Shown here: piece by piece, positions 32,899 to 36,957 of the stretch
How the letters are laid out: each line of letters starts with the position of its first letter
Numbering within the stretch: position 1 is the stretch's first letter
DNA from: Bacteroidota bacterium
GTDB taxonomy: Bacteria > Bacteroidota > Bacteroidia > NS11-12g > UBA9320
Reading direction: 5' to 3'
NCBI GenBank assembly: GCA_018700895.1
Contig: JABIUV010000036.1
Span: 1-51,435 of the forward strand
DNA length: 51,435 nucleotides
Translations under genes and position numbers: made by a program
Notes under the pieces: model-generated
The model's input: the letters and a program-made list of their open reading frames with translations, nothing else
Told to the model about the DNA's origin: nothing
Database searches by the model: none

Positions 32899-34596
32899 AT
32901 GACAACAAAAACAACCACACGCACCCGAGCACAGGAGAGTACCACGGCCATACAACGGCTGTTTGTGACGATGCGGCACTTGTTTAACAGGGGTTTTTAC
33001 AAACCCATGGGCGTGAGTGGCCAGAGCCTGAGAGAAGCCCTGCTTACCTTACAACCAGAGATATACGGCAGCATAGCCCAAGATAAGGTAGAACTGAATG
33101 GCCTGCTATATGTGGTAGATCGCCTGCCTACGGGGATAGAGGAATGCCGATTTATAAACCTCACGAGCGACGAAGGGTACGAAGACACCCATTTTACCCC
33201 AATTATACCACCCAAACGCCGCCGCAACTGCTACCGCATAGATGCCGAGCAGATGAACATAGAAATCACCCGCGGACGGTCGGAGATATATGATATACTG
33301 ACCCACCTTACTTTTCTGTATGTGGAGAGCCATAAGATAATGCACCGCGTGCTCATCAATGAGCATGGCGAGCTCAACCGCGATTGGCAAAAACTGGAGC
33401 AAGCCGCCATACAAACCGAGTCGCTTACCAACCAAGGACGGGAAGTAGCTCTTACCCACACAGCCAACATACTGGGGCGTACCTTCAAAGAAATAAGTGA
33501 GGTGTATCCTAAGTTTGCTACGACGGAGGATGCAGATCGTTTTCTGCAGATCATCTATTGGCTGGGCAAGCTTGCACTGGATGGACACCTGCAAAACAAT
33601 AAACGCACCATCACCTTTAGCACGGTACTGCGTGAGCGACTGGGGCAGCATATACACGGTGAGCTATGGGCCGACACCATCAAAAAAACACTTGCGGAGC
33701 AAGGCATACTGCATCGCCCCATACACATTATCAGTGCGAATATGCACAGTGTGCAGAATACGCTATATGCTCCCGCGGCCCTGAAAACGAAACTTAAGGG
33801 TAAGTCGAGGCTGGATATATACGAGGAACTTAGTGCCAACACAACCCTACGTGGTGATGTGAAAAAAGTAGCCACTAAGGAAGGTATGACCTACCTCAAG
33901 GATAGCAGCGGAACGAATATAGACGTCCAACTTTTTGATACGGCTAAGCTACGGTCGGGTGATTTTGCCTCTGGCATAAGTACGCTCCCCGACGATGAGA
34001 AACCGGTGCTTATTGTGATGGATTATGCCTTTGGTGAGCAGGCCTACGAGACCATGGACGAACTCCTGAAACCGTATAAACCGGATGAGCAAACAGTGAC
34101 CTACCTGCAAGTGCAGAGCATTAGTATCATGGGTAAGGCGGGTATACTTACGGGAGGTAAGGGCGATATTATGATACCGAGTGCTCATATTTTTGAGGGT
34201 ACTGCAGATAATTATCCGTTTAGCAATGGACTTAGCAATGCCGACCTGGATGGCAATGGACTGGGTGTGTATGAAGGGGCTATGGTATCTGTACTGGGTA
34301 CGTCGTTACAGAACAAGGATTTGCTTCGCTATTTCAACCGCAGTACGTGGGGAGTGGTAGGTCTGGAGATGGAAGGTGCTCATTACCAAAAAGCGATACA
34401 GGCACACGCCAAGATACGCAAGAGTATACGCGAAGATGTAACGGTAAACTATGCCTACTATGCGAGTGATAATCCACTAGAGACGGGCAGTACCCTAGCC
34501 AGCGGCGGACTAGGTACTACGGGCGTGAAACCTACGTATCTGATTACAGAGAAGATATTGGAGCAGGTATTTGTTCTCGGTACAAAAACATCGTAG
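32899..34596 (+). CDS. DUF6909-like protein with nucleoside-phosphorylase-like C-terminus
   Basis: 565 residues. The N-terminal block RAQESTTAIQRLFVTMRHLF and the NGLLYVVDRLPTGIEECRFI region recall the DUF6909 family of Bacteroidota, whose function is not established. The C-terminal third contains VLIVMDYAFGEQA, ILTGGKGDIMIPSAH and GLEMEGAHYQKAI. The last looks like the VEMEGAA substrate motif of purine nucleoside phosphorylases and MTA/SAH nucleosidases, so a nucleoside-handling fold is likely by inference. There is no signal peptide, so it should be cytoplasmic. The final seven codons lie inside the palindromic element that begins at 34574, so the natural C-terminus may have been changed by that insertion. 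Confidence 0.78.
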   Translation: MTTKTTTRTRAQESTTAIQRLFVTMRHLFNRGFYKPMGVSGQSLREALLTLQPEIYGSIAQDKVELNGLLYVVDRLPTGIEECRFINLTSDEGYEDTHFTPIIPPKRRRNCYRIDAEQMNIEITRGRSEIYDILTHLTFLYVESHKIMHRVLINEHGELNRDWQKLEQAAIQTESLTNQGREVALTHTANILGRTFKEISEVYPKFATTEDADRFLQIIYWLGKLALDGHLQNNKRTITFSTVLRERLGQHIHGELWADTIKKTLAEQGILHRPIHIISANMHSVQNTLYAPAALKTKLKGKSRLDIYEELSANTTLRGDVKKVATKEGMTYLKDSSGTNIDVQLFDTAKLRSGDFASGISTLPDDEKPVLIVMDYAFGEQAYETMDELLKPYKPDEQTVTYLQVQSISIMGKAGILTGGKGDIMIPSAHIFEGTADNYPFSNGLSNADLDGNGLGVYEGAMVSVLGTSLQNKDLLRYFNRSTWGVVGLEMEGAHYQKAIQAHAKIRKSIREDVTVNYAYYASDNPLETGSTLASGGLGTTGVKPTYLITEKILEQVFVLGTKTS

Positions 34597-34768
34597 ATGT
34601 TTTCACTCGAACTGACAACACGCAGCTACAAAAGCATCACATATGAGAGCCACTCTTCCCGAAAATAATCGGGAGACAACACTGTCTGCTACCCAATGTC
34701 GTCGTTGACGTTGTCTTCCGATAGCTATCGGGACGAGTGTTCCCGATTCATCGGGAATGTATCGAGAA
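34574..34768. repeat. Palindromic composite element, left of GIY-YIG gene
   Basis: Bounded by TTCTCGGTAC (34574) and GTATCGAGAA (34759-34768), imperfect inverted copies. Inside lie CACTCGAACTGACAA (34604-34618), a second CACTC...GACAAC frame split by TCCCGAAAATAATCGGGA, and a TTGTC...CGAGTG frame split by TTCCGATAGCTATCGGGA, then TTCCCGATTCATCGGGAA. The same frame, unsplit, forms the right element at 35107-35220. It starts inside the last codons of the upstream gene. Confidence 0.8.
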
Positions 34769-34785
34769 ATGAACAACGGCTAATC

Positions 34786-34793
34786 TATTTTTG
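34786..34793 (+). promoter_or_regulatory. Candidate -7 element (TATTTTTG) for the GIY-YIG gene
   Basis: An exact TAnnTTTG match, 5 nt before the GTG start at 34799 and just outside the left palindromic element, predicting a leaderless message. Confidence 0.5.
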
Positions 34794-34798
34794 TAAAC

Positions 34799-35095
34799 GT
34801 GAAAGAACACAGATACTATGTATATATACTCCACTGTGGTGACAATACTTACTATACAGGTGTGACCAACGATTTAGTTCGCAGAGAATCGGAACATTTA
34901 GAAGGCTACAATGAAAAGGCTTACACACATAATCCTCAACCTACCACACTTGTTTATAGTGAAGAATTTAAGTATATCGATAAGGCCATAGCAAGAGAAA
35001 AACAACTCAAAAAGTGGTCTCAGAAAAAGAAAAGAGCATTGATTGACAATTATTCTGATAGGTTACCCGTTTTTTCGAAAAAGAAGTTTGAGTGA
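34799..35095 (+). CDS. GIY-YIG nuclease family protein (YhbQ/UPF0213-like)
   Basis: 98 residues, a single-domain GIY-YIG protein. YYVYILHCGDNTYYTGVTND covers the two signature strands (GIY as VYI, YIG as YTG), LVRRESEH holds the conserved arginine, and KAIAREKQLKKWSQKKKRALI carries the catalytic glutamate helix typical of the YhbQ/UPF0213 type. All catalytic positions appear intact, so nuclease activity is plausible. The start is GTG, 5 nt below a TATTTTTG element. The gene fills almost exactly the space between two palindromic repeat elements (34574-34768 and 35107-35220), which suggests a shared history. The biological role of these small nucleases is not settled. Confidence 0.9.
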   Translation: MKEHRYYVYILHCGDNTYYTGVTNDLVRRESEHLEGYNEKAYTHNPQPTTLVYSEEFKYIDKAIAREKQLKKWSQKKKRALIDNYSDRLPVFSKKKFE

Positions 35096-35106
35096 ATCCT
35101 TGTCTA

Positions 35107-35220
35107 TTCTCGGTAAAAAGCATCTTCGATACTTCCACTCGAACTGACAAAACTCTTTACTACCGAGTTTCGTCGTTGTCAGTTCGAGTGGTTTTGCCAA
35201 AGGCAAAATTGTACCGAGAA
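35107..35220. repeat. Palindromic element with terminal inverted repeats, right of GIY-YIG gene
   Basis: 114 bp. The ends TTCTCGGTA (35107-35115) and TACCGAGAA (35212-35220) are perfect inverted repeats. Inside, CACTCGAACTGACAA (35136-35150) and TTGTCAGTTCGAGTG (35176-35190) form a perfect 15-bp stem, extended inward by AACTC/GAGTT, and TTTTGCCAAAGGCAAAA is a further hairpin. It abuts the stop codon of the convergent ABC exporter gene and could also act as a terminator. Confidence 0.88.
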
Positions 35221-36957
35221 CTAAATCCTACTCTGATACGTGTACAGCTCGTAGTACCTGCCTTTAGCATCCAGCAGTTCTTGGTGTTTACCGCTTTCGG
35301 CTATTTGGCCGTCTTCTATCACGAGTATTTGGTCGGCTTGCTGTATGGTACTTAGTCGGTGAGCTATTACAAATGTAGTACGGTCTTTCATCAGCACATT
35401 CAGGCTTTTCTGTATAAAGCTTTCGCTCTCCGTATCCAGGTTAGAGGTTGCCTCATCTAGGATAATGATTTTAGGCTCGGCGAGTAAGGCTCTTGCTATA
35501 CTAATACGCTGACGCTGGCCGCCACTTAGTTTTACACCACGCTCCCCGATGATGGTATTCAGTCCATCTTCAAATCGGTCGGTAAACTCATTCACATATG
35601 CCCCTTCCACAGCCGATAGGAGTTCAGCCTCCGTAGCATCGGGTCTGGGGAATAAGATATTTTCGCGTATAGTACCTTCGTACAAAAAGTCATCTTGCAG
35701 CACCACACCTAGGTGGGTTCTGAAGCTATTGAGATTTACGTGGGCGAGGTCCTGCCCATCGAGGGTAACTTTACCAGATGAAGGATTAAGGAACGTAGCC
35801 GCTAAGCCCGCAATGGTAGACTTGCCACTTCCGCTACTACCTACGAGGGCAGTTACGCTTCCGGCGTTGGCCTCAAAAGAGATGTTATGAAGGACTTCTT
35901 TTTCCTCTTCATAACTGAAACTCACGTTATCAAATCGGATATCTCCTTTGAAATCGGTGATCATCACCTTACGTACTTCGGGATTGTCTTCTTCGGTCAT
36001 ATTCATGAGTTCCTGAGTACGGTCAAGGCCCGCCAGTGCTTCGGTAAGTTGACTGCCGATATTGCTCATTTGTACAATAGGAGCAACCATAAATCCCAGA
36101 AAGAGTAAAAACGACACCAAATCACCGTTTGACATATCGCTAATCATAATAAAATAGCCACCCATTCCCATTATCCCTACGGTAGCCATTCCAAGTAAAA
36201 AGGTACTCGAACTCGTCATAAGAGCAGTAGCAGTAAGGCTTTTCTTTACATTTTGATAAAGGCGATCTACACCCGATTCAAATGTTTTGTTCTCTTGTGC
36301 CTCAGCATTAAACCCTTTGATAACACGAACACCATTCAGTGTTTCAGTTAGTCTACCCGTTACTTCGGCGTTTATTTTTCCGCGTTCGCGAAAGATAGGA
36401 CGGATGTACCCAAAAGCCTTCAGAGCAATAAAGCCAAATAAGCCTACCGGCAAAAAGACGAACAACGTCATCAAGGCATTAATTTTTATCAAGAATACAA
36501 AGGCAACGACTGCCGTCACCGTGCCACCAATGAGCTGTACGAGGCCTGTACCTACCAAGTTGCGTACACCTTCCACATCACTCATTACTCTACTTACCAA
36601 TGCACCACTCTTGTTATTATCAAAAAATGCGATAGGCAATGTAAGGAGTTTTTTCTGTACCTGTGCTCTAAGTTGAGCGATGAGCAGTTGGGCTTCCACG
36701 CTCAATAGGCGGGTGAGAATGAATGAGGTTGTTGCTTGTATCAGTATAGCTCCAGCTACGAAGAAGATGAGTTTCCAGAGTTCGCCCATATCTTTACTCG
36801 GCACTACTACATCCAGCAGATTTTTAGTCTCATACGGCAACACTAGGCCTGCTAAACTTCTGATAATGATAAAGATTAATCCCACGGATAGCATCTTACG
36901 GCGTGGCCATACATATTCTTTTAAGGCCCACTTGAGGGATACTTTTTTCTTGCTCAT
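35221..36957 (-). CDS. ABC exporter, fused membrane and ATPase domains (MsbA-like)
   Basis: 578 residues, a half-transporter expected to dimerise. Residues 1 to about 310 contain six membrane helices (LSVGLIFIIIRSLAGLVLPY is the first). The ATPase domain has Walker A GSSGSGKST near 375, the Q-loop LQDDFLY, signature LSGGQRQRISIARAL, Walker B IIILDEATSNLD, and the H-loop IAHRLST. Substrate could be lipid, peptide or drug, and MsbA-like lipid flipping is only one option. The stop codon is the first three bases after the palindromic element at 35107-35220. It is transcribed alone. Confidence 0.93.
   Translation of the reverse strand: MSKKKVSLKWALKEYVWPRRKMLSVGLIFIIIRSLAGLVLPYETKNLLDVVVPSKDMGELWKLIFFVAGAILIQATTSFILTRLLSVEAQLLIAQLRAQVQKKLLTLPIAFFDNNKSGALVSRVMSDVEGVRNLVGTGLVQLIGGTVTAVVAFVFLIKINALMTLFVFLPVGLFGFIALKAFGYIRPIFRERGKINAEVTGRLTETLNGVRVIKGFNAEAQENKTFESGVDRLYQNVKKSLTATALMTSSSTFLLGMATVGIMGMGGYFIMISDMSNGDLVSFLLFLGFMVAPIVQMSNIGSQLTEALAGLDRTQELMNMTEEDNPEVRKVMITDFKGDIRFDNVSFSYEEEKEVLHNISFEANAGSVTALVGSSGSGKSTIAGLAATFLNPSSGKVTLDGQDLAHVNLNSFRTHLGVVLQDDFLYEGTIRENILFPRPDATEAELLSAVEGAYVNEFTDRFEDGLNTIIGERGVKLSGGQRQRISIARALLAEPKIIILDEATSNLDTESESFIQKSLNVLMKDRTTFVIAHRLSTIQQADQILVIEDGQIAESGKHQELLDAKGRYYELYTYQSRI

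Follow-up and report, generated by a model that had tools for sequence, protein, structure and literature searches.

The window, a stretch of 51,435 nucleotides from a Bacteroidota genome, carries a small GIY-YIG nuclease gene in the space between a DUF6909 gene and a convergent ABC transporter gene, with palindromic repeats on both sides (Table 1). The encoded protein matched PF01541 (E=6.8e-17), and alignment of 16 relatives showed the conserved catalytic residues Y9, Y19-T20-G21, R29, H33 and E67. The motifs, including the catalytic Arg and Glu, and the fold model place it in the GIY-YIG superfamily, of which it is essentially the catalytic domain alone. NCBIfam contained no named family for it. 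In an AlphaFold2 model built from 16 sequences (pLDDT 75), the nearest solved folds were UPF0213 proteins (PDB 1zg2 and 1ywl), followed by Slx1; these UPF0213/YhbQ-type single-domain proteins and Slx1 are also close in sequence. Slx1 is a nuclease of branched DNA, and a fold of this type would suit a substrate such as the foot of a hairpin or cruciform. Neither UPF0213/YhbQ-type proteins nor Slx1 are known for flanking REPs.

Table 1. Genes and repeat units at the GIY-YIG locus of the window.
Feature	Position	Strand	Description
DUF6909 gene (PF21850)	32899..34596	+	host gene, left neighbour; stop at 34596
REP a	34574..34618	-	TGTC-tagged hairpin repeat, TTGTCAGTTCGAGTG-stem-TACCGAGAA; overlaps final DUF6909 codons
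REP b	34711..34768	+	degenerate; faces gene; TTGTC ... CGAGTG ... TATCGAGAA; tag outward from gene (read by eye; arrangement as in related loci)
GIY-YIG nuclease gene	34799..35095	+	98 aa, GTG start, ORF intact
REP c	35107..35150	-	faces gene, tag outward; TTCTCGGTA...CACTCGAACTGACAA
REP d	35176..35220	+	TTGTCAGTTCGAGTG-GTTTTGCCAAAGGCAAAATT-GTACCGAGAA; ends one base before ABC transporter stop
ABC transporter gene	35221..36957	-	host gene, right neighbour; convergent

Two REP units lie on each side of the gene, four in all, and the inner two, which face the gene, have the TGTC tag pointing outward. In each unit of the window a hairpin follows the TGTC tag, in the form (T)TGTCAGTTCGAGTG-stem-TAYCGAGAA. 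The end sequence TTCTCGGTA occurs at 34574 and 35107, TATCGAGAA at 34760-34768 and TACCGAGAA at 35212-35220, while CACTCGAACTGACAA occurs at 34604 and 35136 and as its reverse complement at 35176-35190. The 15-mer core has five copies in the 2.4-Mb genome, three of them at this locus, and the relaxed motif TGTCANNYYGAGN{2,30}CGARR has 25 copies in the genome, compared with one for the reversed control. Folding of the right element (114 bp) gave z = -9.3. REP b is apparently interrupted by the palindrome CCGATAGCTATCGG and contains additional palindromes of the type CCGAT..ATCGG.

The original prediction described an intact small GIY-YIG gene between two palindromic elements, and this is what we found, the elements being TGTC-tagged REP-like hairpins. 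It was also correct that the left element begins in the final codons of the upstream gene and that the right one abuts the stop of the next. The two elements were further said to share their ends and a core. The shared ends were found, but the exact core is missing from the inner half of the left element, which is degenerate. The last DUF6909 codons in the window are REP sequence; the corresponding proteins of relatives end in ...VFG*, ...VFK* or ...VFVSS*.

The repeats accompany the gene across loci and phyla

We fetched 80 loci encoding relatives of the window protein, mostly from Bacteroidota and regardless of repeats, and searched within 400 bp of each gene for the motif TGTCA-N2-3-YYGAG-N2-40-CGARR. 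It was present upstream in 65 of the 80 loci, downstream in 58 and on both sides in 50. More than 1 kb from the gene it was nearly absent, the distal flanks of the same loci giving 0-1 matches per bin. An independent draw of Bacteroidia genomes had REPs on at least one side of the gene in 27 of 30 loci, and on both sides in 21. Plus-strand copies predominated upstream (78:27) and minus-strand copies downstream (65:31); the gene is therefore bracketed by inverted repeats whose tags point outward. Several REP units often form an array around the GIY-YIG genes.

The association was also seen when no motif was specified. An inverted-repeat score between the two flanks had a median of 16 within loci, compared with 9 across loci and 8 for distal windows (p=5e-16); in a plasmid-derived set the same test gave 28 versus 9. 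A hairpin detector, used in the cross-phylum comparison below, was positive in only 7 of 86 distal-window pairs.

The pairing extends to Bacteroidota, Proteobacteria, Cyanobacteria, Peregrinibacteriota, Nitrospirota and Ignavibacteriota. With a query composed as a representative proteobacterial-type sequence, 34 real records of a plasmid collection were matched. Seventeen diverse ones were examined, and in all 17 loci (Proteobacteria, Planktothrix and Spirosoma, with near relatives among them: three Sphingobium and three Shinella) REPs tagged with CGTC, TGTC or CCTC were found on at least one side. Examples are CGTCATTCCCGCGCAGGCGGGAATC in Neisseria, CGTCATCCCCGCGAAGGCGGGGATCCAG in Azospirillum, CGTCATCCTCGGGCTTGACCCGAGGATCCA in Shinella, CCTCATTCCTGTGCTCGTCACAGGAATCCAG in Sinorhizobium and Rhizobium, and TGTCATTCTGAGTGAAACGAAG in Planktothrix. 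Thus, the enrichment of repeats near GIY-YIG genes that had been predicted from the single locus was borne out in all three samples.

At four loci (L048, L059, L082 and L106) REP sequence is apparently read as the C-terminal codons of the GIY-YIG protein, and at L082 the GIY-YIG frame continues through the repeats into the downstream gene.

REP structure and subtypes

Base pairing within the REPs was assessed on distinct motif instances. Watson-Crick complementarity was seen in 77% between the two bases preceding YYGAG and the two following CGARR (12% expected); for the YY/RR pairs the figure was 65% (31% expected). According to this covariation, the Bacteroidota unit starts with TGTCA, which is unpaired, and continues with a stem of 4 bp, a tandem GA/GA mismatch that is conserved and a G-C pair; beyond these lies either a short loop or another, variable stem.

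Several single genomes contain two GIY-YIG paralogs with different REP subtypes, and in the clearest cases the two flanks of a paralog carry the same subtype. TGTCAGTCTGAGGCTCTCGAAG surrounds one paralog and TGTCAGGCTGAGCCTGTCGAAG the other in E. bovis and E. caeni, while in G321 two paralogs of different REP subtype are about 5 kb apart. The same loop class was present on both sides in 71 of 87 two-sided loci (82%; 67% expected). Loop class followed the nearest protein relative weakly (82 of 102, against a shuffled mean of 67, with the best of 500 shuffles also reaching 82). The protein tree was poorly resolved, with some rows long-branched, and shows only that the REP label is clustered.

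Controls and REP numbers

No REP of this type was found within 500 bp of Y1_Tnp (PF01797, RAYT) genes in any of 60 loci, 30 from the window's family and 30 from REP-rich Bacteroidia genomes. UvrC-type and other GIY-YIG genes in REP-rich genomes without the subfamily had REPs at 0 of 18 loci. The more distant small GIY-YIG relatives in the window's bacterial family mostly lacked flanking REPs. The only RAYT-like (Y1_Tnp) gene of the window genome (L140; G000 contig C2:39577-39912) contains two in-frame stop codons and looks like a relic. We rejected RAYTs as the spreaders of these REPs on the result for the 60 loci and the two stop codons in this single match. Chance and accumulation in convergent intergenic spaces were likewise rejected as sole causes, on the basis of the flank enrichment, the motif-free test and the RAYT control.

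REP numbers varied with the presence of the gene among 296 Bacteroidia genomes. The median count was 17.5 in genomes with a strong subfamily match (E about 1e-24 or better, n=76), 4 in those with weak matches only (n=111) and 1 in those with none (n=109). At least 15 REPs were present in 40 of the 76 genomes with the gene, compared with 4 of the 109 without it (Fisher p=4e-15, for genomes that are not phylogenetically independent and with no kinship correction). At least 8 REPs were present in 11 of the 109 genomes without the gene, and 26 of the 76 with it had under 5 REPs that matched the search pattern. In G316 (127 REPs) and G161 (110 REPs) the GIY-YIG gene was present and no Y1_Tnp match was found.

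Repeats abundant in genomes without the subfamily, which the original prediction held to speak against it, are thus rare, but they do occur: G075, a single contig, has 245 REPs and neither a small GIY-YIG gene nor a Y1_Tnp match. Given this genome, REPs can outlive a resident gene or do without one. G075 contains either an orphan REP population or one spread by a third mobiliser.

The unit is mobile

In three relatives (G017, G019 and G027) the DUF6909 and ABC transporter genes are directly convergent, with neither the GIY-YIG gene nor REPs between them; the insertion site in the window is the last codons of DUF6909. Similarly, in Azospirillum lipoferum sufB and sufC are separated by a GIY-YIG unit that carries four CGTC REPs, whereas in three relatives (94-95% identity) the unit is absent and only a short gap lies between the two genes. 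In G155, two paralogs (L214 and L215) have 488 bp in common at 86% identity within unrelated flanks. Their similarity does not extend beyond the REP, and its right-hand end falls precisely on the REP tag (...ACTGAC). A further paralog pair, in G223, has a similar pattern with an end that is not sharp. At the sites compared, no clean target-site duplication or exact junction was readable, and a search for the empty site of L214 within its own genus, using the joined flanks, recovered only separated flanks.

Occupied and unoccupied sites, and copies that move as a defined unit, are the behaviour expected of a mobile element. The unoccupied sites and the duplicated REP-bounded unit also support the earlier suggestion that the nuclease is mobilised with the palindromes, for which a comparison of occupied and empty sites in relatives had been proposed.

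Two side observations concern particular sites. In both A. lipoferum (L170) and Shinella sp. PSBB067 (L179), a GIY-YIG gene accompanied by REPs lies between sufB and sufC. The REP types differ, and the element may have inserted at this operon junction on two separate occasions. In G186, an 11-kb stretch (L223; contig C31:265300-276300) contains three GIY-YIG copies, with block identities of 79-94%, and numerous directly oriented repeat units; it is a local amplification of the element.

A nuclease gene that probably moves with its REPs

What kind of element is this? The best explanation of the data above is one that is functionally like RAYT/REP but built on an unrelated enzyme. We think it likely that a single-domain GIY-YIG nuclease gene between inverted [C/T]GTC-tagged REPs forms a minimal mobile element, the nuclease acting on the REP hairpins. 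The data therefore support the original proposal of a GIY-YIG-driven repeat system where association and joint mobility are concerned; for the mechanism, it is the best explanation available.

That the nuclease binds and cuts REPs, where it would cut, and by which route the unit would insert are points that we infer. The REP would fold into a hairpin or cruciform whose foot carries the unpaired tag; in REPs of the Bacteroidota type, the stem would also contain the tandem GA/GA mismatch. The Slx1/UPF0213-like nuclease would recognise this branched structure and nick or cut the hairpin foot near the tag, and host repair or replication would then copy the REP unit into a new intergenic site. Strand transfer is not known among the activities of GIY-YIG enzymes, and insertion would therefore have to use host functions. 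The REP-gene-REP unit moves in one piece, and single or paired REPs elsewhere in the genome would be its non-autonomous relatives.

Homing endonucleases occur among GIY-YIG enzymes, and a free-standing homing gene might instead cut and insert at REPs that another agent has spread, and so come to lie between REPs without mobilising them. The arrays of several REPs in which GIY-YIG genes often lie, and the persistence of REPs without the gene in G075, could be read in this way. We consider it unlikely, because sites that lack the gene, both in the window's relatives and in Azospirillum, have no REPs either, and because the copied L214/L215 unit brings its own REPs and ends at the tag. Furthermore, no other mobiliser of these REPs was found, the RAYT loci never being REP-flanked.

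Less probable still is a housekeeping role, in which a host repair nuclease removes REP cruciforms or processes transcripts that contain REPs, and in which the REPs beside the gene are its own regulatory hairpins and are not moved by it. Such a role would agree with the resemblance of the fold to the structure-specific nucleases Slx1 and UPF0213, but not with the patchy distribution of the gene within one genus, its insertion in some relatives only, or the several diverged paralogs per genome with their different REP subtypes. Finally, it is very improbable that a short gene was merely flanked by chance, or insulated by REP terminators, where REPs gather in convergent intergenic spaces: REPs do prefer intergenic sites (PMC3733652) and the window site lies between convergent genes, but other small mobile genes (the 60 RAYT loci) are never REP-flanked, the distal flanks of the same loci are almost empty, the pairing recurs in six phyla, and REP subtypes tend to match on the two sides.

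Comparison with known systems

The element we favour, a nuclease gene moving with its REPs, most resembles the RAYT/TnpAREP REPtrons. In both, a small endonuclease-type gene lies between inverted REPs that are also scattered through the genome, many of them solitary, and in both the REP is an unpaired tag followed by a hairpin with a conserved stem mismatch. For the REP recognised by the E. coli RAYT, the tag and a conserved mismatch bulge are required (PMC8266576). Unlike in REPtrons, the enzyme here is a GIY-YIG protein and not a Y1/HUH transposase, the tag is TGTC(A) in the window and CGTC, TGTC or CCTC elsewhere rather than GTAG, and the stem mismatch is a tandem GA/GA.

Di Nocera et al. 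(2013, PMC3733652) state that CGTC-tagged REPs, unlike GTAG-tagged ones, show no association with transposase genes and "apparently lack a dedicated transposase"; TGTC and CCTC variants of the tag are described there too. An unpaired CGTC, TGTC or CCTC at one end of the palindrome was found in our loci as well. The form of this superfamily, an 8-9 bp regular stem with a 4-5 nt loop and a CCA tail, fits the REPs at many proteobacterial GIY-YIG loci (for example, CGTCATCCTCGGGCTTGACCCGAGGATCCA) but not those of the window, whose stem has the GA/GA mismatch and a long variable arm. The Bacteroidota type, with its mismatch-containing and often long-looped stem, falls outside the four families of that study, in which a link to GIY-YIG genes is also absent (PMC3733652). 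Our own search of an open-access library found no report of a GIY-YIG/REP link.

Free-standing GIY-YIG homing endonucleases share with the window gene the nuclease superfamily and the habit of mobile, patchily distributed single genes. In contrast to them, the window gene has no intron, intein or separate DNA-recognition domain, and it is inserted together with inverted repeats in intergenic sites that are otherwise REP-free.

Many bacterial genomes contain REPs with a CGTC or TGTC tag, frequently tens to hundreds of them, and the 2013 study did not settle where they come from. The nuclease is the best candidate so far for the enzyme that spreads this REP family, which makes the question of origin directly testable. 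On balance, though with somewhat less confidence than for the element itself, we favour a new class of mobile element spanning several phyla, with a GIY-YIG nuclease as its sole protein and CGTC/TGTC-tagged REPs as its ends. The nuclease would be the mobiliser that one of the two large REP superfamilies has lacked, and would have arisen independently of the HUH transposase route. If true, repeats made of a tag and a mismatched hairpin would have evolved convergently around two unrelated nucleases, and GIY-YIG proteins would have a new activity.

Other repeats and GIY-YIG genes in the window genome

The left element (window 34663-34757) also contains palindromes of the form CCCGA(N)TCGGG (CCCGAAAATAATCGGG, CCGATAGCTATCGG and CCCGATTCATCGGG). 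The same sequence, CCCGATAGCTATCGGG, also occurs beside a tRNA region at another locus (L009, about 1922-1937), and the palindromes may therefore belong to a second, unrelated repeat family of this genome.

The window genome has two other GIY-YIG reading frames, a small one near tRNA genes on contig C40 (L009) and a longer one on C15, and no REPs were found at either. The former (L009 1342-1920, G000 contig C40) encodes 99 aa and adjoins an apparent tRNA gene. A 44-bp part of that tRNA gene recurs 140 bp further on with 91% identity, which suggests an integration scar.
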